Below, piece by piece: positions 395-64,000 of a stretch of DNA of 64,000 nt. A program made the translations under genes and the position numbers. Where the stretch lies: the NCBI GenBank assembly GCA_903813345.2, contig CAIIXF020000001.1:20109915-20173914 (forward strand). Reading direction: 5' to 3'. The notes beneath the pieces were generated by a model. That model saw nothing but the letters and a program-made list of their open reading frames with translations, was not told the origin of the DNA and did no database searches. The DNA is from Owenia fusiformis. Its lineage: Eukaryota > Annelida > Polychaeta > Sabellida > Oweniidae. Within the stretch, counting starts at the first letter, position 1. Each line of letters opens with the position of its first letter.

Positions 395-602
395 CTTGTA
401 CTGCCATACTGAGATCAACTGATGACATGCTACTTGTGGAATATTCACGATCCTTGTCCTTTTTGGGTGATTTCTTATTCCTTTTTTTCTGGCTTGGGTT
501 ATCTCCCCAGAGATCTGTCCCACCATATATGCTAGGTATGTTTAGCAAGGCTATACCCTCTAATGTTGGACCATTGGCTAGATCTAGTGAATAGCCATCA
601 CA
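395..602 (-). CDS. DGKB-like: DGK exon 22: accessory domain with Lys-rich insert (last exon in window)
   Basis: The exon is 208 bp, phase 0 to 1. It encodes [20 protein letters not shown], then [14 protein letters not shown], then a basic insert [20 protein letters not shown] and a Ser-rich tail ([15 protein letters not shown]). The LEGIAxLNIPSxxGGxxLWG motif is diagnostic. The Lys-rich insert corresponds to the basic stretch of vertebrate DGKB and could serve as a nuclear or acidic-lipid contact signal (inference). The remaining 3' exons are not in positions 1-394. Confidence 0.97.
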
Positions 603-3600
603 CTGAAAAACAGAACACATAAAGAGTTTCCAAGTACTGAATGTGTATGATACTCTAATGACTGGATATGTACTTGATCTTGGGGTATTAAGGTAGGAGT
701 AGCATGTCTAGCATCCTTGAACATCTTACACATAGCAGGGCCTGGGGGGGGGGCAAAATCTCTGCAAAATCTCTCAAAATCATGCAGTTTTTCACCATTC
801 TGAGCACTTTTCAAGTGGTTTTGGGCCAAAGTTGTCAAATAGTAAACCCCCCTGGAATTCTTTGAAAAGTGAACCCCTTGGTAAAAAGCTAGCTGCAGGC
901 CTGCATACCAGCTTCCATACTTATGCTGACAAAATGGTTCAAAATCATCTCACTAGACCCACCTTAAGAATGTTAAGGAAGCAAGCCGTAGATTTAGTAT
1001 TGTTCCTCTAATAATCTGTCAGGTCATTACGGTAATGCACCCCACATCAATTATTTCATTGTTTTAATTAAAAGGGTAACAAATTTAAGAAAGGAAATAA
1101 GAGTAACTTTCTAAAAATAAATTACAAAATCAAGTTTAATTTCTAGAAAGTCCAGATTTTTTTAATTTCAATGATAATCCTTTGATCTGGCAATACTTTT
1201 GATTCCCATTATTTTCCATTTTTTCATTTTGAATTACTGTACAATGAACTACTTCCTTATATGCATATGCTAAATACGTTTGGGAATATGCACTTACCAT
1301 GATATCAATAGACTCGTGGATCTTTTTACAGGTTGCAGAAAATGTCTCTGAAGTTCCAAACTCAAAGTACCATAACTTATTCTTCATTCTGGAAGTATAT
1401 AGGATCATACATTCTACAATGTATGTAACATTGTACAATTATGCACTCAGCCATTCTTCATTATGCACTCATACATTCTTTAATATGCACTCGGACATTC
1501 TTCATTATGCACTCATACATTCTTTAACATGCACTCGTACATTCTGAAATGTATCATCATACATTCTACAATATGTTGCCATATTTTTACAGTATGCACT
1601 CATAGTTATCAGCTATTTGAAGCGCATTTCCTCCCACTGAAAGACAGCATATGCTATGATGGGAAAATATGATGGTTTACACACTTCAGTTCATCTTACA
1701 AAGACATATTAATATAAAATCACTTTTTGGATAATATTAATATCTATTGTTCAACTAATTTTCATCATCTTCACATAGCAAGTGACACATAACATACCAA
1801 ATAACTATTTTTCAAATTGCTGATAAACTATGTCTCCTTATTCAGTTAAAAGAATGCAGGAAAATAAAATAGAGCCTGAACAACAAAGAAAATCCAGTTG
1901 TTTCTAAATTGCAGATTTTCTTGTCATTATTGTTTTAAAAATAATTTTATGTGATGATATTCCCCCATGGCATCATTCATTGGTGATTCCCCTTTCTGTT
2001 CATTGCTAAAAATACTACATTTTTCTGTATAGTGTTATATTTAACTCATTTATCATTGATGCATGTAGAAATATCATTGAGGACCACAGTAATAGTAGTA
2101 CAATATTATATATGGGAGATTTAGTAGGCAATTAATTCTTAGTGACACATGACATGTAATACCATTGTCAACAAGTAGTATTCATGACAATTTGATGTGT
2201 TGTTCAGACTCTATATATTAAAATATACGCCAACGCACTTACACATAAAGATTTCACTGGATATTATAGACGAATAGTACAGGAGATCAACTTGATTCCC
2301 TCCATTATTACAGAATGAGGTTCACCGTAAATATATTCATTTTTTTAGTAAAGACTGTTATATTTATAGCAGTTATTCTTCAGGTGATGCCACTTAGACC
2401 TTTATCACTCCACAGGTATATAGTAATCCTGAGATCTTTATGTGAGTGTTGGTATAAACAATTTATTTTAATCCACAAGTAAATAGATAGAATGCGCAGA
2501 AAGAGACTTCGCTGTCACAAACATGGCACGTCGCAGCGCCAGCAGGCTAGTTGGTTAATGAAATGTTTGGAGGTTAATGATGCTTTTCAGTTTTGAGATA
2601 TCATTACAAGAGCAATGTTGGGCCCAAAACAACAACTCAATTTATTATGCACAATGGGATCATAATACCTTGTCATGGAAAGCTTTGGGTGGACAGGATG
2701 TTTATACATATAATAATAGGGTAGGGATCATGCTAGTGCTACATGCTATTTCCATCACCAAAATATATAGGTGCAATAAAATTGTGCATGTAGAAATAAC
2801 TAAATACTAGGTGGAATTAATAAATATTGTGCATTGTACAATGTCAGTGTGGGACAAATAATCTAGTGCCATATCAGTAAGAAAAATTAGTATTAAGGAA
2901 AACCATAAAATCTGGCACAGTCATGTGAGTAAAATTCAAATATCTAAACCTAATATCTAACTGGTGACTTGTGTGCAGTTATAACACCTACAGTATGCTG
3001 TGTAGGATTTATGTTTTTGTAGTTTTAGTAATATCCAGTACCAAAATAAAGAGAATACATAAGTACATTTGGGGGAAATAAGTAACAGGTACAAAATCAG
3101 AAGCTATGGTTGGTTGACTATAACAACAAGCAGAAGATACCAATCATGCAATCACATAACATGTCAACAAATATTGGCACAATTACAAAATTTCACAAAA
3201 AAAACGTCACATCAATGAACATCTTTAAAACAATAAAAGCAAACACAGAGGATTAATCCCATTTGACATGTGATTAAAGTAGCGTGAAACTGGGGTACAT
3301 CCTCTATGTACAATTTACAACTTGAAACATAGCTTTAAGGAAGGCAGGGCAGAATGACCAATTTACCTAATGAGATGTACTAATGTCATATGTGCAGGTC
3401 AAAATCATTTCACACTGCCCACCTTAATCTTCCCAAAATTAACCCAAAACACAACACAGTCAACCAACCATCGTGTCCATTGTCCTCCCAAGCTTTTACA
3501 ATGACAAGGTTTTACAAGAACCCCCTACTCTACCTGCTATTGAATTTCTCGGGATGTTTTTCCCGCATCATATGAAACCTATGTGCGATGGACGCGTCCT

Positions 3601-6600
3601 GCAGAATAGAACACAATATCATAAATACAAAGAAATAAAAAACCCAGGGTGGACAGGCATTTTGTAAACATTTACATTGTAACACTGGATGGGAATAAGC
3701 ATAGGTTTGCCACCTTAGAGAGGAATTTACAAAAGCAATTCTGTAACAGTTCTGCAAAGGTAGGATTTGAATGCACCGTGGAGCTGTTATTGCAAGGATA
3801 GCCTACAAAAAGAGCATGCACACAATTTTAAAGCTTTTTACAGGGCAAAATACAGGGTGTTTTAAAAATATAATATGCATGTTTGATCTCATATTTTTAG
3901 AACGCTGCAAATTGGTAAAGGGTACGCATGCAAAGAGAAATTCTCCAATCTTAGTTGGAGAAATTCACATGTAAAAGAAGAAACACAAATATTCCATCAC
4001 CGACCATGATTGTAAAACATGTTGTCATCATAGCTTTGCTTTTAAGCCAAGTAATGATTATGTCTGCTATTTAAGACATTTACCAAAACAAGTATATTTT
4101 GATTTCAGTTACAATTTTCCAAACACAATTTTTACCCTTCCAAATGTAATTCTTAAAAAACATATTGATGTCAAACTGAAAGGTTATTGAACATTTAAAA
4201 TGGAGAAATCTGTGAATTACTAATCACCATCATGATGATTATCTGGAGAAGATTGTTTATTCTCATGGGGTTCCTGAAGCCCACATTTATTCTTAGCAGT
4301 TAGGCCAATATACAGAGTGGGCCAATAAAAATTGGAATGTGGATCCAATGAGGATAAAAAAGTTATGACCTGTGATTTTATTGTATATGTAATTTCTCAA
4401 TACATGTTTATTTACGAATGAAATTCATTCTCCAAAGTCTTTGTAATGTTCTCTGCTCCATATAATGTACAAGTAACACTCTCCTGGGGTGGAGATAAGA
4501 AAGCTGCACATGCATACAAGACACCAGCAACATAACGTCTCAGCATTCGAGAGCAACTAAGACAAAACATAGAATAAGGGGTGGAATGAAAGCTTGACAT
4601 AAATACTGGAGACCAAAATGCCTGTTCCTGGGTAAACACAAACCTGCTGTCAAATTTATGTGGATATTTTTCTCGCATCAAATGAAATTTGTGGGCTATT
4701 GACGCATCCTGGAATAGACTTTGTATATTAGTAGAAATTAAGGTTAAAAACATGATGAATTTCTAATCCAACAAACTTTAACAATGATTATATAACTGTT
4801 AATGATTTGGACTACATACTGTATTGTGAACATCCTCTCCATGTATCTTGACCCAACCCAAAAATAAACATATTGTGAAAAAATGAACACCCTTTTCAAA
4901 AACATTTGGGAAATATTCACATTCAACTGAACTAAAATGAAAGTAACAGCTTACCACCCCAATAGAGAAATAATTATTGATAATGTTACAAGGAACTGGA
5001 TCCCCTTGTTCTACAGTATCTGGCGTACTAAACTCTATCTGCCAGCGATCCAGCTGGACTTGGTTACCACTCTTTATTCTGTGTAAATATTTGTTCAGAT
5101 TTTCTCCCTCATAACCTGGAAAAACACAATTGTTTTCAAAAAAGACATTTACATACTTAATTTTTCTTTTTTACTCACATTTTACTTGATTACATATAGT
5201 GCATGTGGTATATCGCATATTAAATATTTTCAAAGGATGCAATGTTTGAAGGATACTTGAACAACATTTTTTAAATTGCCCTCTATTATGTAAATGTACA
5301 AATTGCATGCTGGCTTTGACTGTTAACAGTATATCAATAACTATTGTTTAAAATGACACATGCTATACATCAAAGAAAAGTGAGCACTGTTTAAAATCTA
5401 GATGCACATGTGGCAAATGTTTGAGCCGGATAAAATCCCCATGTTCAATAAAATGTCACACTTACAATACAATACAATAAATGGTGAAATGAATGTTATG
5501 TGGCTGTAAATATTTACCTCCTCCCCAGTTGAGACATCGTGCCAGGTCATTACCCGTCCCAAGAGGTAGAACTGCCACTGGCGGACGATTTACAAAGGTC
5601 ACCTTATCTACAACATAATATAAATACTATTTATTCATGTTCATTGAAGAGCATGAAAATGAATCCCTCCATTCTTGACAGAAACAGAATAGGTAATAAT
5701 GATATAGAGCTGATAATAGAAATGTATACTATTATTACTTATGCACTGCATTGTTCTTTATACTATTGATTCCTTTCAAAGCATGTTTCACTGGCTTTTG
5801 GTTTGATCATATTCAACTGCGTAGTTTCTTGTGTTAAACAATATCAAGAAGCAGCAGGGGATATCTAACTGCATGCCTATTAATCCCCCGCCTACTTAAA
5901 TTACCCCCTTTCTACTCACCCATGGCTTCAAGTAACCACCCGACTGTTCCATCTCCTCCGCAAACAAGAATTCGGAAATTTGGCACGTCTTTGAAAAACT
6001 GCAACCTAAAAATGTTACACTGTGGATGCAGTTTGTGTTATATTTTCATATTTTCAATGTAATATAAAGCATGAGTCTGCATAGCTTATAACTTCATACA
6101 ATAAGTTATACAATGTAGTAATACTTGTAAATTCAGTAATGACTGTCTATAAAGTGCACACCTCCCTATAAAGTGCAAACCTCCAGACAGACCTGCTCAT
6201 GTTAAAAACTGACCCCTATAACATTAGTGCCAATAAATTCTGAACAAAGTGTTCTCACTTCAAGAAATTCAATTTAAAAGAACCAGGATATTGTGATTTT
6301 TGAGATATGCTTTTGTCCATGTGTGAGTATCAATATCTATGCATACACAGTTGAGTTCATAAATTTACAGTGTACATACACTTGGAACAATGTTTTTAAT
6401 GTTGGCAGTCAATGTACTGTATATTTAAATGTGTTAATTCGGAATAAAGAAAGGAGAAAATGAAGGTTAAACATACGCTGGTTGAGGTCCTCCATTTTTG
6501 ATCAGATCATAAACCTGCCTTGGGTTGAGTAAATACTGAAACTTTCTTAATATCCTGAAATAAAATGCAATCAAACTTGAACACAATACGAATGTGTATT

Positions 6601-9600: not shown

Positions 9601-12600
9601 TTCATGAATTTAAGAAATGTTAAAACATGCCAAATGGAAACCTTTTCACTTTTTAATATTCTTTATTTATGACTTCTTCAATATCTTTACAATAAAGCAG
9701 ACATAATCATGGTCTCATGGTTATGCTTTAAATTCTGTTTGAGGACATTTTACATTTTTTCTTGTTGATCAGATGTATCATTACATAGACATAGTATTCA
9801 ATGGTAAGATTTGGAGTGTTTTTCTAACTATATGGTATAACACTATATAGTATAATAAAATATATAACATTATAATAATATAATATAGTATAGTATAGTA
9901 CAAGAAATAATGTTCCTTAATAAAGGACTTACATTTAAACCTTTCTTTGACTTTACATATGTGGTTATACAACAAGCAGGGGCTCTGTGGACACACCTCT
10001 CGTGTACTGTATATTTGCAAACTGAAAATAACACAATTTAGTAAACATACATACAGACGGATGGATGGATGCGCCTATGCCGACAATAAGGCCCCACACT
10101 ATGTGGTGGGGACATAACAAAAGGAGTAAGGCGTCTCTGATAAATCAGCATGATCTTCTCATCTATATGAATATTTTCAAGATCGACAAAACCTCAGAAG
10201 AACTTATTTGTTTGACTTACATATGCAACTAAGGCCTTGTTTTCCTAGTCCCACTAGCATGTTAAGGCAGAGATTGCAGTAGGCAGGTTTGTTATAGTGT
10301 TTGAGACGCCAAGAGTGGGTCCCGTCATCTTTCACATTCTGAAGTATAGTGATTACTTAATAGTCTGGTTTATTATACTTATAGGTTAGAAGTTTAAGAT
10401 ATTGAAGTGTTTTACTTTAATTACAAAGAATATATATATAAGAAATGCTTCAAATAAAACAAATGAGTAAAATACACAATCTATCTTAATTTTATCAAAT
10501 TTAACTTCATCACCTGGTAAGTTATTGTGAATGGTTACAAAAGTGTAACAATGTATTACAAACACCAAAAGCCAAATGTTATTTACTGCCATTCATTATG
10601 AGACTGGTGGCTAAAACAAGGTCATTTCTTGGGTAAGGACAAATAGCTGCCCATGCCTATTGATAGTACATGTATAAGTTACATATTAAAATATTTTAGA
10701 ATTATTCAGGATGGGAATTACAGATGTTAAAGTTGTACATACTGTGTCTAGACCCAGTAGAACCAGGAGAGGTATTGTTGTAAGACCTCCACGCTTCCAT
10801 TCCTCCAGGGAAACAGTTCCATCTTCATCATAATCTATCTCACGCATCATGTCTTGTAATATCTGTAATAAGCTTATATGTTTCAATAATGCCTTACACA
10901 ATATTAGACAGCATTACATTCTTAGCAAAGCAATTATACTGGAGTCAGTCAAATTGATTCACATAATCCAACTAATAAACCGACACTAGGCCAAACTTAA
11001 GGTTTGTTTACTCACAGGTTTAAGCTCGGAGACATCCCAACCAAGGTACTCTGCGACAGTCATCATTTGCTGCACAATACAATCCAGCTCCTAAACCATA
11101 ATGCAACGCTCCTAATTAATATGGCATGACAAATAACATGCTATGACAATGATTATTACAGAGATAATCAATTAAAATCCAAGACTGAAGTGGTATAAAC
11201 CTCTTCATTATTATATAAAGAATCGAGAGGATGTTTATCTAAGAAACACCTATTTTACGCATTTGAAACCTCTGAAATGTCCAAATTGATGACAGGCATC
11301 AAAAACTGCATTATACAAGTATAAACTGGTTCTTAACATTAAAATTACAGTAGACTACAAATCAGGGAAGGCATCAAAAGACCAATGTCTGATAGGAAAA
11401 TAAATAAATCTAGTTTTGAGTTGGACCCCCCTCCCCAGCAAAACTAAATACAATGAAAGTTGATCGCGGACTTTTCACATGTTAAACGACTCAATTTGGA
11501 CTTTAATTGGGGCAGTACTATAACTTATTTATAATTCTTAAAACATGTGCCAACAACAACAGGCACAATATTCCATTGTTGCATGCATCTTGGTGAAGAA
11601 GGCATCTGGTAAAGTCTTTATTTTTAAACCATTCCAAGGAATTTCCAGTCGAAATTGCAAAAAATTTAAATGTTGAAATTTGTCGGATAGCAAACTGAAA
11701 TAGCTTTGAACCCCTCCCCTCAAACTAGATTTATTTAGTTTTCTATCAGACATTGATCTTTTGATGCCTCCCCTTATAAAGGTACTTCTAATGGTACTTC
11801 TAGAAATATACAGAAATTATTCAAAAATAGAAATTCAACAAAAATAAAAACATTTTTCTTCACAACTATTCAAGTATATTGAGCCCATATACCTTTCAAA
11901 GAGAACTATACCAATTCCAGAATGCTTTATCTACATCAATAATCTGCAAAAGGCTAATAAGCCCATTTAAAGCAGATATATTACATTTGAGAATCAGATA
12001 TTAAGCATGATGGGATTGGTTTGGGACCATTGCTACTTACACTACCCTCAAGTAGTAGATTGTCATCTGTATCATACAATCTAAACATGACTGAAAAACA
12101 CATCAAAGAGAGGACAGTAAAATAAAGAGACAACCCAAAGGACAACATAAAATGAAAAATAAAATGAAGAAGAAACAAGTTGAATACAAGAAAACAATAC
12201 TTTGCAGCCCTCTCCACCCCACCAACTGAGTGACCAATCCAATACAGTGCATGTGCTGGACATGTACAGTAGAACCTGTATATCCGAACACCTTTCTAAT
12301 CCAAACATCTCTCAACGTGAACACTTTATCTCATCTCCCATTGACTTACATATTGAGACACTTTGATATGTGAACACCTGCAAATGTGAACTTTTTTGGC
12401 CAGTCACAATGGTGTTCGGATTAGACAGGTTTTACTGTAATCACTGTAATAATTGGTGATTTAAACAGGTGTCATCAGTGGATGTACATGTATTAGATAC
12501 TTGTGCTGTTGAATTTAAAGGACTGCATTGCATCATGGGTACTACTGCACTATGGGATGGTTCTATCCTCCATTGAAAGGTGTGTTGCCTACTCTACAGA

Positions 12601-15600
12601 GAAAATAGTACGTAGGTTATAGTCATAAGCAAGTATCCATAACACAATACAAAGCCCCTTAGCAATTTCCTCGAATCAAGAAATAACTAAAACAAGATCT
12701 AGCAAGACTCATTGTGACAGGAAATACGAATCATCAAAAGTAAAATTGAACATTTCGGACAAAATTGATTTTGGAAAGATTTATGGAGTCAAAGTGTGTG
12801 CTATGAATCACTAAAAATGGCTATAACCTTACATCTTCAGTCTCTTATTATACATCTATTGTCAGTTTTATCACAATTTCTGAGGTTGTTTAATCATACA
12901 AATGACACACCATCAGAAACACATAAAATGTTTCAATAAGAAAACTAAGATAAGTGACTAAATGCATGCAATATATAGAGTTCTGGATCTCACATAACTA
13001 CATACTATGGAGAAGTACTACAAAATAAAATGTATCTACCCACGCCATGCAATACTGAAAATGCTAGATACAAGTTATCTCAATTAACAATAAGGTTGTT
13101 CCATTCATTTTGCTGTATTTAAAATGCATGGCTAGAGTATTTTAGTGAAAGGGGCAATATAATCATTGCCCTACCCTAACAAATACATGGAGATGGTACA
13201 AGGTCAGAGCAAGGAAAACGTTCCTGATATATCGAAATTAACCACTATTATTCAGAAAGACAGTGTTTCACTCAGTGTTTTTACTTGGGTAAAATTTTAG
13301 AGCTGTGGTTGTGAAAATGGATATGTTTATATACAAAATAGAATCTGTATTTAAACTTTATTTATGAGGGTAGTAACAAAAGCAACACCTACAAAAGACA
13401 ACATCTAGGTATCTTTATTTGCATATTCATTGTTTATTTGGTTATCGATGCATTGCATTTAATGACTAATATACAAATAGAGAACAGTCAGAATGAAACT
13501 AGTTGTCACAATGTTACCATAGTGATAGCATTTGTCACCATGGTTACTTACATCTGTATCTAGAATACCGTTGCCATCGGCATCATATAATCTGAACATG
13601 ACTACAATAGAAATGGAATACACAAAAGTTTTAACTCTCTTCAAATGCGTAAATAGTAAATCAAATGTTATATTGACTAAAATCTTATGACTTTAATTGG
13701 TCAGTAATTCACACACACTTGTAAGCTGCACCTAGACTAAAATACATATACTCGTACATCCCAAACAATAATGATTTGGGGTCCCGGCATGTTGTAACGC
13801 TATAATTGATGATTCGAGTCCTTTCAATAATCTTCTATTGCATCCATGTTATCCTGGAATTGATAAGTTTGGGTCCAAAATGACCTGAAGTTGAAGACCT
13901 GCATATTGGTAATGAAAGCCCTTTCAGGAAAATGAGGAATGCATACATGTAAAGCATACAAAGTAATATAAATATGGTAACGAGAGTATAAAAAATCTTA
14001 TCAAAACTATTCCAAATCTATGCACAAACATTGAATCAGTGATCTCCCCAACATTAACTTGAGAATTTTGAAAATAGGCTTGCACCCACTTGAAAACAAA
14101 AACATTTTCCCTTTTGCAAATGAGAAAATCATAAAAAATCTGTATACTTTGACCAATTTAGTATTAAACTGTATGAGAATTTTACACTGATAAAACCCGT
14201 TGAGCACACTCCATCTAGGTTTTATATCAATTCAGACTTAATTCACATTTGACCACAAAAGATTAAATGTACTTTTACTTCTTAATATTCCTATATACAA
14301 CATCCATTACTACTTACATTCTAATTTATCCTCTGGTCTCCCAGCCTCCAATAACGAGAGGTAACATACTAAATCCTTTAGATAGATACTGCCATTTTTT
14401 ATGTCTAAGCTATTCCGACGTTTTATATCATTGGTATTCAGTAGAGAAGACTTGGACTGGCGGATCCACGGATCACTGCTATCTATAACACAGAAAATAA
14501 AATGAGTAAAAAACAAATCGATTTTACATGAGATGAAATTTTATTATCGATCAGTCAATATCAATGAAACATATACATGAGTTAGCAATAACAACATGAC
14601 ATATGAATAAAGTTATATATTTGATAAATGTTTATTTAAAAAATAACAATTTTTCACAATTATTTCTGCCAAAACATATAATTTACAAATGTCCAACACA
14701 GACAATACAAAAACAGAAGCATATAATACATCATATCATACCAGCATACAACACGCTACACTTGCACCATACAGAACAAATTTGATTCCAAATTGGAAAT
14801 ATTACGCATGTACCAGTACTGATAAATATATGTGCAGTAAAACGTGGATTAGTTAAAGGGCTTATAGCTGTTATTTTAATCCTAAATAACCCAAAAATAT
14901 TTTTAATTCATAATGATGTGTAACTTACACAATCGATAGACTTGGGATTAAACTAATTCTTCTTTGTAATTACTGAAGCTTGAAAAAAATCATTCATGTA
15001 GAAAGTGAATTAATTGTTCTTAATAACTTTAAAGGTGCAAGCAGTCCAATGTAGAAAGTGAATTAATTGTTCTTAATAACTTAAAAGGTGCGAGCAGTCC
15101 AATGTAGGAAGTGGATTAATTGTTCTTAACTTAAGGTGCAAGCAGTCCAATCTTGATCTAGTCATACTGGTGACTTGGTGAGGATTTTTCTCAAGCCTTG
15201 ATATTTTCAAAAACTTTATGTTCAAGTCTATTGATTCTACAAGTATAAGTTACATATAATTCTGAATTCGAAATATTTCACAGTTATACCATGGTCACAT
15301 TTGCTCTGGTACTGGCACCCGACCGATGAGTATTTTGTTCAAAATTACATTCAGTTTTGAACAAAATACTCATCGACCTGGCTCCAGTGTTGAAGATAGG
15401 GGCAAATGTGACCACAGCATTATTTAGGCTGAAAGTTACATCTCTTATAGCCATTTAATAGCTGTTTGCAATTGCAGTTTCTATGAGATTGTTTCCCTGG
15501 GTATGAACCAGTCAATCTCACGGTCCTACCTACAATTTTCACTTGGATCATATGTGTATGTGTTGAATACACGTTTTACTGCAATATATGACAGCCCCAT

Positions 15601-18600: not shown

Positions 18601-21600
18601 AAGAACAGCATATAGTTATTGATCATCACCTATTACATGTAGTTATAAAACCTGAAATATTTACAATTTTAACTGCACATAAAAGTCAATCATGCATGTG
18701 TTTTATAACAATAAAAACCAAACCATGCATGTGCCCCGTAACAAAGACCCAACCATGCAGGTGTCCTGTAATAAAAAAAATGCATGCAAAACCATGCACA
18801 TGTAGGACAATGAGCTGCACCAAGAGGAAGAGACAGTACAATGAGCAGTACAATGAGCGATACCAACGTGTGACAAGGAAACATATATAGCACACAAGCA
18901 TGTGACTGACTGGGGTGTATGAAGAAGAAGCTTACCATTGTGAATGCTATGGACCGAGTGTTGGGATTTTTTAGATGATGAACGGCTGTGGTTGGAGGGA
19001 TCCACAATGGGGGTACCATCAGGCAAGGTGCCCCCTGTTGAAGCCACTGCAACTGAAGGTGGAAGTGTGTAAAGCAGAAGTAGAGCTTTGTAGCTTGTAT
19101 AGAGGAAAGCAGGTGCTGTTAGAAAATGTCACACGCCAGATTATACATATAATACAGGGCAACTCTCATCTCAATAAACCAATCGAGACGTTTATACACA
19201 AGGCATGAACATGCAAAATGTCACCACCTACCATTTGTTACAATCACCGAACTTTGAACACCGACCACTAATTGCTAAACACCAACTGCTGAACACCGCT
19301 CACAAAAAAGGTGGAGACCATAACAATATGTCAACACTTGTGGTGGTGACATAATAATGTGTATCATCCCCAATTTGCATATCTTAACAGTAAGCGATAT
19401 AATAGTCTATGATGATTTCTCCCTACGTCCCTAAGTTAATGTAATAAATCTAATTCAATTTCATCATTTTGATTAATAGTAGGTGTAAAGTGAGGATGGT
19501 ATATGAGATGAGAATATTCCTCAATAGAGCGCAACAATACAATCTACATCATGTCCTGCATAAGATAGTTCAAGTCCAACACAGCCCTCAGTATAAACCT
19601 CAAGATTCTCAAAATAACCCAGGTGTATATATATTGTTCCAACACATTCTGGGGGATCCTAAAGAGTCGTGCATTCCTTCCATTAACTTCTTTCTGCTTT
19701 CAAACCGCAGGAATATAATAGAACTACAAAAATGTCTAAATAACATAGATCTGTCCAAAAATACTGCTTTTCACCAAAATGCTTTTGGATAAATTTCAGG
19801 ATTTGGAGACAAAGGATTAGGACATTATAATTTCTTCAAATATAAAAGTACATCCTTATGTTAAATAAAAAAGCTCTAACAAAGATTGATAATGTATAAT
19901 GTACAAGTAGGAATCAACGAACTTGCACATGATTTTATTTTGTGCATTACTCAATCAAAAATAGAATCAATGTCACAAACCATATTATCAAAATGAAACT
20001 TTCTCTTAAAATATAAAATCAAACAAATTGAATCTGGACTTTTTCTTAGATTTTATTTTAAATATGAGAATCTTGAGTTACATACTGTAAACAGGCAGCT
20101 ATGAAAGGATCGTCTACACATTGAGAAGTGCTGAGTAAAGATTTGAGGCCTATTACATTACAAAATGCTGGTCTCAATCAAAGTAACTAAAATGCATCCT
20201 GCTAAATCATGCATATATAGCTTTCTTTCAATTTTGAATGAACTGCATAATTTCTTATGTGATGATGCTTATTAAAAATTGTATTTTAGTGATAAAATCT
20301 AAAGTATAGGTCTCGGGATATATGTCATAAATATTCAGTTTTTACCTAAAAACTGCTCGTACTTATCTGTCACCAGGCCAACATTTCCCGGAAAGGGTTA
20401 AGTCATTTTCATCAGCAGATTGCTTTATGTTGTGTTTAACATGGTTTAAAATAATGTAATTTAGCATTGATTGAGTCCAGCATCAAGTGTTACTTAATAA
20501 AATGAGCAAAGATATGTCTACATTTGTATAGATTGTTCCAGTCTTGCATCACCCCCTTACCCCTCTCAATTCACAAATAGGAGCAGCCAATTTTGAAAGC
20601 ATATTTTTCATTCTGTGGTTGAACAGTACTTTGATCCTCATAGATGTCATTTTTATTTGATGATTAAAGTTTTTATTTGATGATTAAAGGTTTTGTTGAA
20701 ATAGAGTTTTGGAATTTTATGTCAATATCTAATAAAAGAAATCTGTGTTCAAATCTTTAATTCAAGTTTTCAAATATGCATTTTATTGTCTGGAACATAA
20801 ACACAGATGTGACCTCTAGCCCTTTTATGAATCTAAATTCATGAAATATTTACATGTTTTCTACATGATTTCCTCAAATAGATACCCTCTATTATGAGTC
20901 TTCATGAATTGAATTTTAAAAAATGTAAGAGAGAGCTTAAAAGAAGACTAAATCTAAAACTAACTATTTTAAGTTCTTACTGAAGTGAACATGTAGGACT
21001 CTCATGAAACTTAATTTTTGATCATCTACTCAACTGCAGAACCTCAAAACTCAAGTTCTTTCCTTCTTCTTAAGGAAAGCAAACCAAGGAGCACTGCATT
21101 TGGTTGATGTATTTAAATTCATATTCAGTGTAACAACTGTATTAAAGGTAAACTGGTCATTGCACCCTTAACTTGCAATTCAATCCACAATAATTGATTG
21201 TTTTAGCTGTGTTGCAATTTTAGGATGCAATGATCCGTTTAACAGGCATATCTATTATAGATTAGTTAAGGTTATTAGTGTTAATTTAAATGCCTTATAT
21301 GGTCTTATTATCAGGTTCACCTCAGTGGTTTTAAGTCCCTTACCTGCACGGCCGCGTTTAGCAGCCTCTCCACCACTACTATCATGGCGAGCATGACCGG
21401 CACGGCCAAGCTTCTCTGTCAATCCTTGAATTTTTTCTACAAGGCGTGGTTTACTTTCCTGCTTGTCAGAGATCTCCTGTAGCTGAGCCTGTATAATAGG
21501 AGCACTAACAGTTTGTGAGGCCATAGCGGCCACATCACGCACATTATAACTGCCTTCCTTACCCAGAGTCAAAGATTTCTGAGGGGGGCCAGATGGTCGT

Positions 21601-24600
21601 TTCAGGAAAGATAAAAATAGATGTTCGCAGAGTTCTTTTGGGATGTCATCCACCTCAAGGTATGTTTCCATGAACTGTTTGAAGCCTTCATAGTCAATAG
21701 GCTGCAATAGAGAGAGTATTGGTTAGCTCATTGCAAGGGTAGTCTATTATATAACTGTTGTCTCATCATATACAAGTGCATAGAAATCATATTGTCCTGT
21801 GATTCTTTAAAAGGGTGTATAACATTCATATTTGAGCACTTGTATTTAATACTGACATCAGACAGATACAAAGTTAGTGAAATCATATGAAAATGTCTAC
21901 TATTTTCGCTTTAACTCAGACATGAGGTTTAGTATAATTTGCATGCAAGAAGGTCAAAGAAACAATAAAATACTAAGTTGGATTACATCAATGAGTTCAA
22001 TTGAATTGAATATTTAAATAATGAACTGTCTAGTAACAAATAAGAATGAAATTAAAAATACTAATGATTCTATGCAAGCATATTATGGATATTAGCCAAG
22101 CATGGACAAATTCAAGTTATTACACTTCATAAAATAAAATAATGCACTACTTCAAAGAAAAATAATTTTTGCAATTATATGTAACACAACTTAATAACCA
22201 AATGTTGCATCTACAAAGTTCAATCTATGCAAAATATGTATCTTTATTTGTCATGGTGTAATGCAGATGGGGAGCCAAATGACAAATGTTTTTCGTAATT
22301 GCAATCGAAAAAAGTGTAAAAATGTGTCGAAACAGTTGTTGGAAAACCAAGTGAGACAAATGTTATATGAAAACAATGTATAAATTTTTTTTTTATTAAA
22401 TTATATGAAAGCTTCTTCCTTGTATGGGTCAATTGTGGCTATAGTACTACGGCCAAGGCGATTTGTGTCCAAAACACCTAGATTCAATTTGACTTTAGAT
22501 TCTTGTAGGGGACCCCAAGGCATGTAAAAAAATGTTTGTGAACCCTTGCAAAGCAGGCTCAAAAGTGCTGAGTCAGCAAATTTTATCATTTTCGAGTCAG
22601 AATTTGACCATATGCTTGAAACTATTTAATATCTCATTTGAGGATGATGCAATTGTAATGAAACATTGTTAATATATCAATAAGGCATGTATGAAGAATT
22701 CCTGAAAGTTTGGGTCTTATTCAACAAAATTTGGTAGAGATATGGGATAATTTGTCCCTAAAAGTACATAATTTCTCCTCAAAATGTCTTAATCAGTCGA
22801 TAGTTAATCAGTCATTTAAAAAACAGTAAGGGCCTATGGTGTATAAAACCTGATTAAAAACTTCACTGATGATGTGAGCAAATATTTCTTGAATAAGTTT
22901 CAATAAAAAGTGCATGCATCTATTTTTTCTGATTTTTCTCTTTACCTTCCCCTAAAAATTCAAGAAAGGGGGCGTGGCACCTTACACTTCAGTTGTTGAA
23001 CTTTTTGCTAGGGTCAAATAGAAAATATGTATCATTATAGCAAAAAGTGTTATTCTAAATAAATCTTAACACTATATGTGACATCATAATATGCTAAACA
23101 TATTCATTATCTATCATTTTATTGAAACTTATTCAAGAAATATTTGCTAACATCATCAGTGAAGTTTTAAATCAGGTTTTATACACCATATGCCCTTACT
23201 GTTTTTTAAACGACCGATTAACTATCGACTGATTAAGAAATTTTGAAGAGAAATTATGTACTTTTAGGGACAAATTATCCCATATCTCGACCATATTTTG
23301 TTGGTTAAGACCCAAACTTTCAGGAATTCTTCACACATGCCTTATTGATATAGTGACAATGTTTCATTATAATTGCAACATCCTGAAATGAGGTATTAAA
23401 TAGTTTCAAGCATATAGTCAAATTCCGACTCAAAAATAATAAAATTTGCTGACTCAGCACTTTTGAGCCTGCTTTGCAAGGGTTCACAAACTTTTTTTAC
23501 ATGCCTTGGGGTCCCCTACAAGAATCTAAAGTCAAATTGAATCTAGGTGTTTTGGACACAAATCGCCTTGGCCGTAGTACTACTATGCATCAAACTGATA
23601 TTGAAATTCAAAGATGAGGAATGAAGGATTCTAGAAAAAATAAGTCTCATATTGACATGTTTCAACCCATAAGAATCAAAATGAAACCGTGCAACCATCT
23701 CTTTTAATTTTCATTTGATGGTATATAAAGATTTTAATAAGCAAAACAATATAAGTTGTGAGTCTTGTGAGAATGCCATCTCTGTGTTAAGTATTTATAA
23801 TAGTGATATCCATGTGGTGTTTTGTTAAGTGACCATGTGGTGCGAGTGGTGCAATTCTAAAAGCAACACACAGGGTGAGGGTGGGCCAGAAAAAATAGAG
23901 TAAAAATAAACCCTATCACATTCAAATATTATACGAAAAATATATGTTTATTTTCTCATAGATTTTTAGTAATCATGATATTTATAAAACAGAAAGGAAT
24001 TAAAATGAGATTGGATGGAGATAAGTACTGCAATTAGGGATGCCTATTATAGTGCTATCTGAACTGATTAAAGCATGTTTAAGTTCTCAAAACCTCAATA
24101 CTCTACAAGCAGAGTGCCAGAATATTAAAAAAAGTTGATAGCTTTCCGCCAACCTGTCTTAAGGTAGGCCAAGGAGGATGCATTTTGAACTGATTGTGAA
24201 TAAAGTCAGTATATAAGCCTATGAGGCCAAACATACCAAGCATTCTACTTGGTCTACCTTACATAAATGTGGTTATGTATAAGCCAGCTAGGATTGTGAT
24301 GATGAGCTATATTTACGCCTTAACCAGTTCAGATAATCTGCACTAAATGACATTTGTTAAATGTTGACAATTACATTTTTGAAGTAAGTTCAAGTAAATT
24401 ACACAGGAATTTATATTTGAATGTGGCAGGTATGTTATATTGTGAGAATTGCCACCACAGTGGGTCTTACTCTCTCCAAGACCTCCAAATCCTGAGACTG
24501 GAAAGGGAATAGGCCTCAGGATTAATTCATGCAAGACATAGGGATGTATAATGCACAATACATACAGACAATGGTTGGTTACTCATTTCATGAGATCATT

Positions 24601-27600
24601 GTTACCATAGAAACAGCAACAAGATGTCATGACTTTACAAGCTTCAATAAAATTAACATGGTTTCATTAGAAAGTATGACATTGTAAAGATATAGCATAA
24701 TGATTCCCCAGTATTGTGTCTCACATGAGTGTAAAACTTTAATTTTACCAATTTTAATCAACAAATACATGAAGTTTCAGGTACAGAGGTCAGAGGTACA
24801 GGTTGATTTAATATTGTAGAAATCCCTCTATTGGTTACAGTATTGGTAAATTCCCAATTGCCCAATGCGAATGGTCGATAGTCATGAAAATGGTAGATAG
24901 TGATATAAATGGTAGAAAGTCATATAAATAGTAGAGTCATACAAATGGTAGATAGTCATATAAATGGTAGATATAAATAATGGTAGAGAGTCATGTAAAT
25001 GGTTAATAGTTATGTGAATGGTAGATGGTCAATTGGTCATGTAAATGGTGAATAATCATATAAATGTAGATGCATGTAGTCATGTTATTGGTAGATCACA
25101 GTCATGTAAATGGAAGATAGTCATGTAAAAAGTAGATAGTCATGTTAATGATAGATTAAGTCATGTTAATGGTAGATAGTCATGTAAATGGAAGATAGTC
25201 ATGTAAATGGTGGATGATAATTTGAAAATACAAATTTACTCAATTTAATCAATTTCCTGAGAATGTGGCAGTTCAGAATTGAGAATGAAAATAAGTGAAG
25301 ATACATGTATACTCAAATTAATACTGATATGACAGATTCATTCACAAATAAAGAATTCTATAATAAAATTTTGATGTTTTCAATGTTACTTCACATAATC
25401 ATTTAATCTTTCATAATTTGAACTTTCCATTTGAACATGAATATTAATTAATATTAATTATTAATTGACTACATGGATTTTTCATACATGTAGTTAAGGC
25501 TAAGCCCAAAACATCATCATGTCCCCCTCAGGCCCCTTAAATAAGGGGAAAACCTAAACTACTCAAAGTAAAAACAAAGCCAAAAAGAAATGAAAAGAAA
25601 CCAAACAGAAGTAATAAAGCAAAATCTCAAAGTTCAGAACATAATTTAAAACAATTGAATGTCTCTAAAATGTAGCACTGAGGAAGAATTTGATTCAAGC
25701 AGAAAATTAATTTTGTAATAATACTCCTAACATTGTCACTGCGTAATACTTATAGGAATATCTTTTATTCATTGACTAATTTCTACCATCTTGATCCATC
25801 TTGGTATTTCATATAAACTGAGAACCAATGAGGGTGATGACGATTAAAAAGACCCATTCAGTAAACAGACAGTTGCCCAAGTTCAGATATTTCAAGAGAG
25901 TTAGTGTCAAGACTGCATTGATGATAATAATATTCACTGTATAGTGGCATATTGCATACATTTCCATGCATTGACTATTGTCATGTTAATCAAACCCAAT
26001 AATTACATAAAATATGGTTTTATCGATTTCATTAATTTAACAATTAGCTAACAATGAAAGTACATGTATAGTATACTGATGAAATTAAAAACGGACCTTA
26101 CTAATACATGATTTAACATACTGCATATGCACGATATGTATTTAACGATAAGCTAAGATGCTTTTAGAATTTAGACCTAAAGAAAATATCCTGTTATAAT
26201 GTTAACAGAGCCATGCCCAATTTCATAAACAACAGGTATGATAGATATACAGTAAAACCTGTGTACACCTATGAAGCTAAAAAAATGTGTTCACTGTAGG
26301 TAGGTGTTCACTACAGAGATTGTAATTTATACAGAAGTCAGTTGAGTATATGGTCAGGAAGGGTGTCTTTTAGAGACAGGTGTTCACTTAAGACAGGTTC
26401 TACTGTAGTACTATAATCCTGCACCGAGAAAAACAAGCAACTTGCAAATTAATTGTTCTATTAGCCTATATAACATGTTGACCTTGGACATAAATTGACC
26501 TATCATACTGAACTTAAATCAGCCTATCACAAGCTAACCTTACATATGAACTGACCTATTACATGTTGACAATATACAATATAATTTGATCTATCGCAAG
26601 CTGACCTTAAACATAAAAAACATAAAATCTCAAGCTGACCTCGCATATAAATTGACCTACCAAATGTTAACATTGCAAATAAATTAACCAATAATATGTT
26701 GACCTTGAACATAAATTAACCTATCATATGTTGACCTTGAACATAAATGAACCTATCATATGTTGACCTTGAACATGAATTAACTCATAATATGTTGACC
26801 TTGAATATGAATTAACCCATCATATGTTGACCTTGAACATAAATTGGCCTATGGCATGTTGACAATGTACATAAACTTATCTATCACAAGTTAAAATTTC
26901 ACATAAATTTAAAAAATGTCTAGTTTAAATGTTGACCAGTTAACATGTCAGCACTCACCTCCTCTGGATTGTATTTGGACAACACATCTTTCAACTTCTT
27001 ATTGGAATCTGAAAATATAAAACATTTCTCTATAAAACGGAATAAACATTGGCAGAAGGGGCGAACTGAACGGTCAATACTCAGGAGGAAGTGGGCTTGA
27101 TATGCAGTAATACTTGCATGTAAAAAATGATATTTTTGAATAACTGACCACTGACTGAGTATGCACACTGATTCAAATATTGTTCTCCACTTTCATGAAA
27201 TGACAGCTTCTTCACTTTCCTATAGGTCTTTGGATTTCAATAATATTTAATTGCTAAAGATGCAGCCTTCAGTATTTTGATACTATTAATTGTGCACTTT
27301 TTACTTTTATTACAAATTATTGTAAGCACCCTACACTGCCTATTTGTCTCTTTAACAAGCTTTATAAGACATCGATCTGGTATTTATATTAGAGGCATCA
27401 TTTAATTAAATCAGTGAAAAATTTCTATCAAATATCATTTGTGTTATTGCATTCATACCCAAACTGTCATGAAACCATTTTCATCAAAATATGCCTGAAG
27501 ATGTATTCTGCAATTCTGGAAACAATTGTATAACTGAAGGCTGTATCTCTAGCAAACATATTATTGAATGATTGAAATGATGTGGCAAAATGAACTAAAC

Positions 27601-60548: not shown

Positions 60549-60964
60549 CGTGATATTGTCAACAGGGTGGCATGTTATTCAGATTTTTTACAGGGTGTGG
60601 TATCTCATTGCTTAAATTACAACTCCAGCTTTCCATGTTTGTAGTTTAAGGTTAAGACCTCACCAAGGAAATATGGACAACAAAAAAATTAAAGTAAATA
60701 ATGCCTATATAATTTCTATACAAGAAAAATGATGATTTTTAATGAAAAATGATATTTCCAATATTCCACCTAAAAATCCTCATTATTATCAAAGTTACTT
60801 TCAATCTTATTCCCTTTCATCAATTCAGACAATCTTTTGATGTTGAGATAAAAATACTCCACAAATCTATAATCGAGATCAGTCCTGAACAGACATAACA
60901 GTATCAATTCCACCTCAAAGCCACTTTGAAGGTCTTCAGAAAAGATGTAGAGTGACCAGAATAT

Positions 60965-61230
60965 GTGAAGTCTAGCACACAGACCCGCAAAACATGACTT
61001 ATTAGGAACTGTCGCATTTGTGAAGGAATGAAGTTGCTGCCTAAACTTAATGCATTTCATGGTACTGTGAAGTCTAGCGCACAGTCCCACAAAACATGAC
61101 TTATTAGGAACTGTCGCATTTGTGAAGGAATGAAGTTGATGCCTAAAATTAATGCATTTCATGATACTGTGTAGTCCAACAACATTAGACCTACTGTGAA
61201 GTCTAGCGCACAGTCCCACAAAACATGGCG
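60965..61230. repeat. Tandem repeat, 102-bp unit
   Basis: Two full copies (from 60965 and 61067) and a partial third (61169), with a short extra start at 61196. The unit begins GTGAAGTCTAGCACACAG. Length divisible by three makes a long minus-strand open frame (60770-61249) with a repeated SCFVGLCARLHS segment; I regard this as a repeat artefact. Confidence 0.85.
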
Positions 61231-61249
61231 AGTTAAGGAATAACCACAA

Positions 61250-64000
61250 GTAGCTGAATGATCCCGGTTGCCTAAAACCGATGTTGTGTGCTGTTTTGGT
61301 ACAGTGTGCTGGCCTATAAGTACAATGTATGTGTGTGGTGCATTATGATGTCCCAATCAGAATCAATAGAGTGCAAACAAGACATTACTTGATAGCAAGT
61401 TATTGCACACATCTATTGACTCAACTTTGAGTATATATCAATATGTTCAGTATTCTTATAACCTGAAATAATTTTATTTCATTCAGATATCACCAAAAAT
61501 GACTCCCATTCCAATTTGCCTTTTTGGTTATCTATATCTAAATTATCTAAAATAAGTATCATCTAATTCCTATGCATTTGCTCATTTGTTTAAAGTATAA
61601 AGCTTCATTTAATAGGTTAGTTAATTGGCTCTGATTCGGAGCTTGGTGCAAGACTAAAGACTAACAAAGATTGACTCTGACGACCACCGTACTGGCAGAG
61701 CCACATCATTATGCGGCCATTAATTGATTGAAATGCTCAAATGCAGCAATATAGACAGAGTAACATAAAACATTGTTACACACCATCTTTATAAGTACAT
61801 TGCTAAATTAATAAAAAAGAAATATTGCTATCTGAAAACCAAATTATAAAGATAATAGAAGTTGATATGGAACTGTATTACGTATTACTTCCAAATTAAC
61901 AGAGATAAACCTAAGGTTACATAAACCCTCTTTATACTCCTACTACCAAGAAGTGACACGTTCGAGAAAAGTTTCTGACCTACAGCAGATTTAGATAGCT
62001 CCTTGAAATGTTGAGTTGAATGCCACTTCTAACAATAACAGATAAAACATTTTTTGATAATCAATTTTTTTAGCTCTTATTTTTGGTCCATGGACCCCTT
62101 GGTTTAAGTTGACCTTAGTGAGTTGAAACATATATAAGAAACACATTTTGATATACTTCAGGTAAATAGTAGTCTTACATTTCCTTTAAGACCTAAAGTG
62201 TTTTGTGACCTGAATCAACTGAATTGAAATTATCATTAACCTACATGACCAACTTTTATTTCACCTATTACAATATCTTTAAATTTGAGAAATATGCCTC
62301 TTCTTAAGTTTCTGTAAAAAAATAAATTCATGTCAATACCACAATGTTGTGATACTTTTCTAACCTTTTAAAAAAGTTGCAAAATTTTTTGGCCCACCCT
62401 GTATAGCCTTCCTCAGCTCAAATACAGTCAAACACAGTCTGGTACAAAGACCAAAGAAATATTCCACATTGAGGTAACTATTGAGTCTATTCCATTCATT
62501 TATATTTGTGGATGGATCATATTAAAGGTCTGTGCACCCATTAGATAGGTAGTGCTGTGATGGTACTAAAATCTATTATGATTTAAGGAGTCCCTCTATA
62601 TGTATCTCTCTTTCCAAGAGATTATAGAGGCTGTTGGTGCTATAATTACTAACATAATAGTAAGAGATCACTGTTTTGATAATTGCGATGACCATGTTGA
62701 CAAAATGGTCTGGCAGATCAGTGCCAAGATGGGTCCAAAAAGTGTAATTTTGGGACTAATTTTGAATTTCTTTTAGAAATAGGGCTTCTTTTATAAAAAA
62801 AAATATTTTTGGTAAAATATTCAAAAAAGTATATCTAAATTTCAAAACAGTAGCCTAAAATTGAGATCTTCAATGTAAATGCCTTCTGCAAAACCTAACT
62901 GACAGGGAACTAGATAATGGAGGAGGGGGCACCAAGTAACCATAGACCAAAACAAAGTGACTCAGTACAAAATGGTTACTTTAACCAAACAACCACAGAG
63001 GTCTTGTAGGGTCATGCCACAAGCATGCTGATGCTGACACCGCTCTTGGCAAATAAACATCCAGGTAGTACCTGAAGATGATGAATGTTGATTGGCTCAT
63101 TCAGGTCATGTGATTTTGTTGAGGCAAGCTGGGAAGAAATTAGTCTTTACAGTAAAAAATAATGTTTGTAAACATATCATTTTTGAGAAACTACAGTTAA
63201 CTTAAGGTGGGCTTGGTAATACAACATTTGGACCTGTTTATATATGATGTCACTATGCAAATCATCATATAGAGGTCAAATTATCCATTCTGCTATTTCT
63301 ACCTTAAATTATTCATAATATACAATACACAATGTAATATTTATGCTATATATCATTCAAGCATGATAATAATCAAATAAAACAATTTATAAAATAAAAA
63401 ATTAAAAAATATTTTATCTACATATCTTACTATTTAAAACTTATTAAGTGTTTTTAATTATCAACTGTGTATATTCAATATTGTTTATGATAAATGTTTG
63501 ATATTAACCCACATATTTCATTCATAATAATACTTTTCATATTGGAGTATAACCTTTCAAAATTATTCATACCTTTCAATCGATTGCTGGTATGATTAAA
63601 TTTCTATACAGGATTATCATAAGAGTTAAAATATTCTACAAAAATTGGCCAAAAACTTTCCTAAGTTTTATTTCTTAAAGGGATACACATATATCTTCAG
63701 TGGACTACAGGATGATTTCTAATTTCTAATTTCTCAATGGGGTTCAACATCCAATTTGCTTCAATAACGCAAAAAAACACTGGGCAATTCGGAAGAGGAA
63801 TCTATTAAATAAAACAGATTGGTCACTCAGGTATTTCAAGTACATGAAGATGAATAAGGGTTATATTCTTCCTATATGACATGTCAACTATAGTAACTTA
63901 AGTGTTTGGTACTTGGGAAATTGTCAAAGATCAATAATTCTAATATTAAATGTTCTGAATTATCTTGAAAAATTAAATTGCCATATTCTCAATTGGTCAG
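61250..64000. other. Right end of window, no recognised gene
   Basis: AT-rich. A lone CCACCCTGTATA MITE end lies near 62393. No coding signature is found on either strand. Confidence 0.5.

Follow-up and report, generated by a model that had tools for sequence, protein, structure and literature searches.

Can a single diacylglycerol kinase gene, by taking one exon out of two, produce enzymes that differ in their calcium site? The question is raised by the 64-kb stretch of the Owenia fusiformis genome shown above (the whole stretch analysed, hereafter the window), whose minus strand carries one type I diacylglycerol kinase (DGK) gene running from a probable first coding exon at 46292 past the left edge of the window. 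Two homologous exons, A and B, each encode a version of EF hand 1 of this kinase, and two others, C and D, encode two versions of a piece of its accessory domain. Judging from reading frames, splice sites and comparison of the copies, this is quite probably a type I DGK gene with two clusters of mutually exclusive exons, in which exon B weakens calcium binding by EF hand 1.

The EF-hand exons A and B

Exons A and B both lie on the minus strand, have the same length (50 bp) and are separated by an intron of 1461 bp (coordinates of all features are given in the table below). The acceptors read ..attgtag/TC for A and ..ttttcag/TC for B, and the donor is GTAAGT in both cases. Each exon borrows one base (T) from the exon upstream of the pair and ends in phase 0 before a common 75-bp exon. 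The frame stays open with exactly one of the two: inclusion of both A and B leads to a TGA inside the 75-bp exon, and skipping of both leads to a TGA at the junction itself (..PEDKLE*). EF hand 2 is intact whether A or B is chosen. From these reading frames we infer that A and B are spliced in a mutually exclusive manner. The exon border falls just before position 12 of the EF loop, the Glu at this position being supplied by the 75-bp exon. This arrangement fits the vertebrate genes, because DGK genes are given as examples in which an exon border splits the EF loop toward its C-terminal end (PMC9177970).

An earlier note on this DNA had described two 50-bp exons of equal phase with clean GT-AG sites, placed 1.46 kb apart, and had stated that both copies together would run into a TGA in the 75-bp exon and that neither copy would give a TGA at once. 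The exons are found as described, the distance agrees with the measured intron, and both stops are confirmed by translation. Its assignment of the gene to type I DGK, the homology of the two exons and the retention of EF hand 2 are likewise supported by domain profiles and translation.

A and B are identical at 32 of 50 nucleotides (18 differences) and at 10 of 17 residues. When the best stop-free 50-base segment lying between AG and GT was sought, B scored 52 against A and the next-best segment of the real gene scored 1, the maximum being 26 (mean 4.4) when 46.2 kb were dinucleotide-shuffled 200 times. The likeness of B to A is far beyond chance. The proportion of synonymous differences is 0.78 (7.8 of 10.0 sites) vs. 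0.25 for nonsynonymous ones; the duplication is thus not recent, since the synonymous differences are near saturation. The first seven codons, i.e., the helix part, carry two synonymous and no nonsynonymous changes. With the observed number of differences placed at random on A, the protein identity was matched without a stop in 0.35% of 200,000 simulations. These values suggest a constraint at the protein level and that selection has kept at least the helix. The introns around the copies diverge past the first 21 bases.

In an EF loop the ion is bound at positions 1, 3, 5, 7 (main chain), 9 (via water) and 12, and high-affinity binding is said to depend critically on the Gly at position 6, which allows the loop to wrap around the ion (PMC5983762). 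In the loop of B, ligand positions 1, 3, 5, 9 and 12 are D, D, N, E and E, i.e., all are retained, and position 6 is a Leu in place of the canonical Gly. In total seven loop residues differ between A and B (2, 4, 6, 7 and 9-11). With B, the Pfam profile EF-hand_1 detects EF hand 2 alone, the match to EF hand 1 being lost; the EF-hand pair model passes its cut-off of 30 bits either way (34.4 bits for B vs. 39.6 bits for A). The EF hands of human DGK alpha (6iie) are matched with E 1e-21 by a 61-residue A peptide and with E 2e-18 by a 49-residue B peptide. T2 and S11 are common to B and 6iie and absent from A, thus B is not just a degraded version of A. The better reading of the B loop would be a weakened calcium site, not a dead one. 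The loop had been called broken in the earlier note: Gly6 is indeed missing, but D1, D3, N5, E9 and E12 are kept, so that a lower affinity is likelier than loss of the site. In the same way, the calcium toggle that it proposed is permitted by the frames, which accept one exon of two, but is overstated because all loop ligand positions are kept in B.

The second exon pair and the gene

A self-comparison of the gene strand (window 1-30000, i.e., 30 kb of the gene and not the part from 30 to 46 kb) brought out C and D as the sole other exon-like duplication, the many other pairs being intron repeats on visual inspection. C and D are on the minus strand near the start of the accessory domain, measure 65 bp each and are separated by an intron of 1045 bp. 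The earlier note, with its single exon switch and two forms, does not mention this pair; up to four forms are possible. Of the 65 bases, 16 differ between C and D, 10 of these changes being synonymous and 6 nonsynonymous, and 17 of 22 residues are identical. The corresponding proportions are 0.87 (synonymous) vs. 0.11 (nonsynonymous), and differences placed at random on D gave the observed identity without a stop in 0.002% of 200,000 simulations. The score of C against D is 98, vs. a maximum of 17 across 200 shuffles.

Inclusion of C and D together leads to a stop, and so does the absence of both. When the four states of one pair (A, B, both, none) are combined with the four of the other (C, D, both, none), 4 of the 16 combinations are open, namely those with one exon per pair, and the other 12 hit a stop. 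Only four proteins are productive because the exon lengths are 2 mod 3 in both clusters.

Compared with human DGK beta, D presumably represents the usual form of the accessory domain. According to our reading of the alignment, C retains all nine residues that are common to D and to the four other accessory-domain loci of this genome (one of them, L005, joined across an intron). No second copy of the homologous accessory exon was found within 8 kb at any of these four loci, the comparison for L005 being that of its first 24-residue part only. It must be mentioned that in the L005 paralogue, which we take to be DGK zeta/iota, the region matching D seems to be split by an intron (EFHESR / EANPEKFDSR), unlike in the window gene. 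A sequence search for a solved structure of the C/D region gave weak CylK matches only (best E 0.09). Of the 20 resolved donors, those of C (GTTTGT) and D (GTAGAG) look by eye to be among the most irregular, whereas A and B have the full GTAAGT; such irregular donors would suit regulated exons.

The two clusters, each with two homologous exons, belong to one apparently intact type I DGK locus. Pfam profiles find the N-terminal recoverin-homology domain (RVH), EF hands, two C1 domains, DAGK_cat and DAGK_acc; in the A-containing form, two EF-hand_1 stretches are followed by two C1_1 stretches. DAGK_cat scores 104.5 bits. DAGK_acc scores 124.1 bits in the A+D form and 120.1 bits in the B+C form, reaching profile position 110 of 158 in both; the remaining portion of the profile is left of the window, and C-terminal coding stretches are seen in the adjoining 4 kb. 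The genome comprises 498 Mb in 525 contigs, the window being on contig C1. The type I N-terminal family (recoverin homology, PF14513) has two matches in it, both within the DGK gene of the window, i.e., no second type I DGK locus is found by this search. Judging from the introns and the content of the gene, we take the host to be an animal. A search of the assembly for COX1 gave no match. As expected for an animal gene, no relatives of the B peptide were found in prokaryote contigs, nor of the B and C peptides in viral contigs.

Proposed mechanism and its alternatives

In the proposed mechanism, splicing of the first cluster would take either A or B. The A form would have an EF hand 1 with a canonical 12-residue calcium loop. 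The B form would keep the ligand side chains, with the Gly6 hinge replaced by Leu and residues 2, 4, 7 and 9-11 changed, and calcium binding by EF hand 1 would be weaker, EF hand 2 being unaffected. In DGK alpha at rest the EF hands hold the C1 domains, and calcium frees them (PMC9607625); calcium chelation reduces the activity of DGK alpha (PMC6089211). If so, activation of the B forms should require a higher calcium level, or their response should be smaller. Splicing of the second cluster would take C or D, i.e., a stretch of 22 residues in the catalytic accessory domain would be present in one of two versions that differ conservatively and that may or may not differ in their effect on the kinase. 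In both clusters the exon length would turn double inclusion and double skipping into premature stops.

As regards the control of exon choice, GTAAGTANNNATGG is common to the donors of the upstream exon, A and B, and these are its only 3 matches in the 64-kb window, for 0.05 expected. A narrower form, GTAAGTARYMATGG, has 25 matches genome-wide, 3 of them at these donors, the reversed-pattern control giving 52. Both forms were defined post hoc from the sites themselves, so that all these figures exaggerate. Duplication alone does not explain the shared GTAAGTANNNATGG, because the upstream exon is unrelated to A and B; it could be a shared regulatory element. A bolder proposal, which we consider doubtful, is that one ancestral type I gene achieves by splicing what mammals spread over three genes, i.e., that 2x2 enzymes are made through two independent switches, of EF hand 1 calcium affinity and of catalytic or lipid behaviour, with the first cluster under a shared intronic element located directly after the donors of A, of B and of the exon upstream of them.

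Several points weigh against the exon switch with a weakened B site. As all the ligands are kept in B, the effect on calcium could be small. In the loop part of A/B the nonsynonymous proportion is 0.45, which fits relaxed constraint there too, and the test of constraint is small, with 17 codons (10 identical) and only 2 synonymous changes in the 7 unchanged helix codons. Moreover, the known mechanisms that enforce exclusive splicing find no counterpart here: steric hindrance would need introns shorter than those of 1461 and 1045 bp seen here; the donors are U2-like by eye, without the mixed types that U2/U12 incompatibility needs; and intron-intron RNA pairing is no better than in shuffles (in each of the 6 intron pairs compared, pairing at least as good was obtained with 11 to 20 of the 20 shuffles), in a comparison of whole-intron duplexes that is a blunt test and bears on one species.

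The retention of the ligands leads to a reading that overlaps with the proposed one and shares its exon switch: both exons would be used with a nearly unchanged calcium affinity, and B would alter the surface of EF hand 1 toward the C1 domains or another partner. To this we give a limited but appreciable chance. It agrees with the conservation of D1, D3, N5, E9 and E12, with the 34.4 bits still obtained for the B form with the EF-hand pair model, and with the location of 5 of the 7 loop differences (positions 2, 4, 7, 10 and 11). On the other hand, a Leu at position 6 is not conservative and Gly6 is called critical for high affinity (PMC5983762). It is improbable that B, possibly along with C, represents a leftover or a rarely used duplicate, the protein being made from A and D while the other copies decay or serve as poison exons. 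The deviation of B from the EF consensus at Gly6, the nonsynonymous proportion of its loop part and the premature stops upon A+B or C+D inclusion (as poison exons would give) would all be expected of such copies. However, decay agrees poorly with synonymous A/B differences near saturation while the helix protein is unchanged (2 synonymous and 0 nonsynonymous in 7 codons), with 10 synonymous vs. 6 nonsynonymous C/D differences, with intact splice sites and ligand positions in B, and with the low simulated frequencies obtained for both pairs.

An assembly artefact, i.e., collapsed haplotypes or paralogues that brought in second copies from elsewhere, has hardly any credit. The analysis rests on a single genome assembly, and a genome search with the A peptide missed B itself, which makes it too insensitive to exclude a diverged source locus. 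Nevertheless, all copies sit on a single contig, in sequence and flanked by exons whose phases are correct, the surrounding introns stop resembling each other after 21 bases, and the PF14513 search returns no other type I locus. The A-peptide search gave four matches, of which the 75-bp exon of this gene and A are good and the other two, in unrelated places, are weak (46% and 43% identical, E 0.8 and 2). No retrocopy that could serve as evidence of splicing is among these four matches, within the limited sensitivity of a search that does not list B. Mutually exclusive use of A and B, with a weaker calcium site in B, is the reading that we favour.

Known systems and features of the window

The systems to be compared include alpha-actinin, which is a cytoskeletal protein and not an enzyme, and the CaV2.1 channel, whose EF-hand exons are of the 37a/37b type. 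Alpha-actinin (ACTN1/ACTN4) has tandem duplicated EF-hand exons of which only one version binds calcium (PMC9741552, citing Waites 1992). The likeness lies in duplicated exons within an EF-hand motif; the differences are that exon B of the DGK keeps the ligand residues and loses Gly6 only, and that the DGK has a second pair in its catalytic half. In OGDH, exons 4a and 4b are mutually exclusive and give calcium-sensitive and calcium-insensitive forms of the enzyme (PMC7969005, PMC9177970). Its site is a DxDxD motif and not a full EF hand, and its exclusivity is due to remote branch points, which limit the length of the introns, as compared with introns of 1461 and 1045 bp in the DGK gene. Splicing is also cited as a switch of calcium-dependent facilitation in P/Q-type channels (PMC9177970); CaV2.1 resembles the present case by alternative exons in an EF-hand-like region and differs as an ion channel with another fold context.

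The mammalian type I DGKs (alpha, beta, gamma) share their domain order and their EF hand 1 (6iie) with the window gene. They bind calcium with differing affinities according to a title (Yamada 1997, cited in PMC6089211); in mammals affinity thus differs between isoforms, whereas the single gene of the window could vary it by splicing. The C. elegans dgk-1 gene (DGK theta) has a neuron-specific 3' splice site (PMC12084633). It is comparable as a DGK with cell-type splicing and differs by the type of DGK and by the event, an alternative 3' splice site, duplicated exons not being described in the passages cited. Five oyster DGK genes are listed among differentially spliced genes, the types of event being unstated in the passages cited (PMC6611504). 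No report of a DGK with mutually exclusive or duplicated exons was found in the literature searched, and an unpublished description or a database annotation may exist; the main texts of PMC5740500, PMC9741552 and PMC7954323 contain no mention of DGK. EF-hand exon switches are thus already known, no report of one was found for a diacylglycerol kinase, and a double switch is unusual.

Diacylglycerol kinase ends diacylglycerol signalling and starts phosphatidic acid signalling, and calcium sets when the type I enzymes act. If the proposed mechanism is true, the exchange by splicing of a calcium loop and of a piece of the catalytic half would let cells tune the timing of the kinase without new genes. 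The two loops, one with and one without Gly6, would also provide a natural test of the role of this residue, and one more enzyme would be added to the proteins in which an EF hand is switched by exon choice.

In the exon model, the 3' end given for the recoverin-homology exon (21459..21701) is provisional, and further small exons may lie between 9160 and 6870; the EF pair is unaffected.

Table. Coding exons of the DGK gene and donor-site elements, with their positions in the window.
Feature	Position	Strand	Basis
Probable first coding exon	46229..46292	-	translation
Recoverin-homology exon (3' end provisional)	21459..21701	-	clear acceptor; listed end not a GT donor
Exon preceding the EF pair, closing the recoverin-homology domain (..GRPEDKLE)	14318..14482	-	phase 1 end with T; PF14513 match
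Donor-site element GTAAGTAGTAATGG, after upstream exon	14304..14317	-	motif match
Alternative exon A, 50 bp, EF hand 1, canonical loop	13552..13601	-	splice sites, frame, EF profile
Donor-site element GTAAGTAACCATGG, after exon A	13538..13551	-	motif match
Alternative exon B, 50 bp, EF hand 1, Gly6 to Leu, ligand positions retained	12041..12090	-	splice sites, frame, EF profile
Donor-site element GTAAGTAGCAATGG, after exon B	12027..12040	-	motif match
75-bp exon, Glu of loop position 12, TGA met on A+B inclusion	11016..11090	-	splicing and translation
EF hand 2 exon, identical in all forms	10743..10862	-	translation, Pfam
Two C1 domains, four exons	10338-10221, 10021-9933, 9576-9460, 9258-9160	-	translation, Pfam
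Catalytic domain and start of accessory domain	6870-6779, 6554-6477, 6005-5920, 5607-5518, 5115-4955	-	translation, Pfam
Alternative exon C, 65 bp, accessory-domain variant, donor GTTTGT	4644..4708	-	self-comparison, frame
Alternative exon D, 65 bp, presumed usual accessory-domain form, donor GTAGAG	3534..3598	-	self-comparison, frame
Exon following the C/D pair, stop here if C and D are both skipped	1298..1388	-	translation
Further accessory-domain exon, gene runs on leftward	395..602	-	translation, profile match

Some other features were observed in the window. The intron before the exon at 14482 contains tandem repeats of about 54 bases (..GGACTGCTTGCACCTTTAAAGTTATTAAGAACAATTAATTC..) at 15010-15160. 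At 15325-15374 a hairpin with arms of about 20 bases (GATGAGTATTTTGTTCAAAA and its complement) is seen by eye and may represent a small mobile element. The introns of the DGK gene also contain short diverged repeats in two arrays (24890-25240 and 26500-26880). Finally, an open frame of 190 codons on the minus strand (60770-61342) contains a repeated CFVGLCARLHS..NATVPNKS unit.

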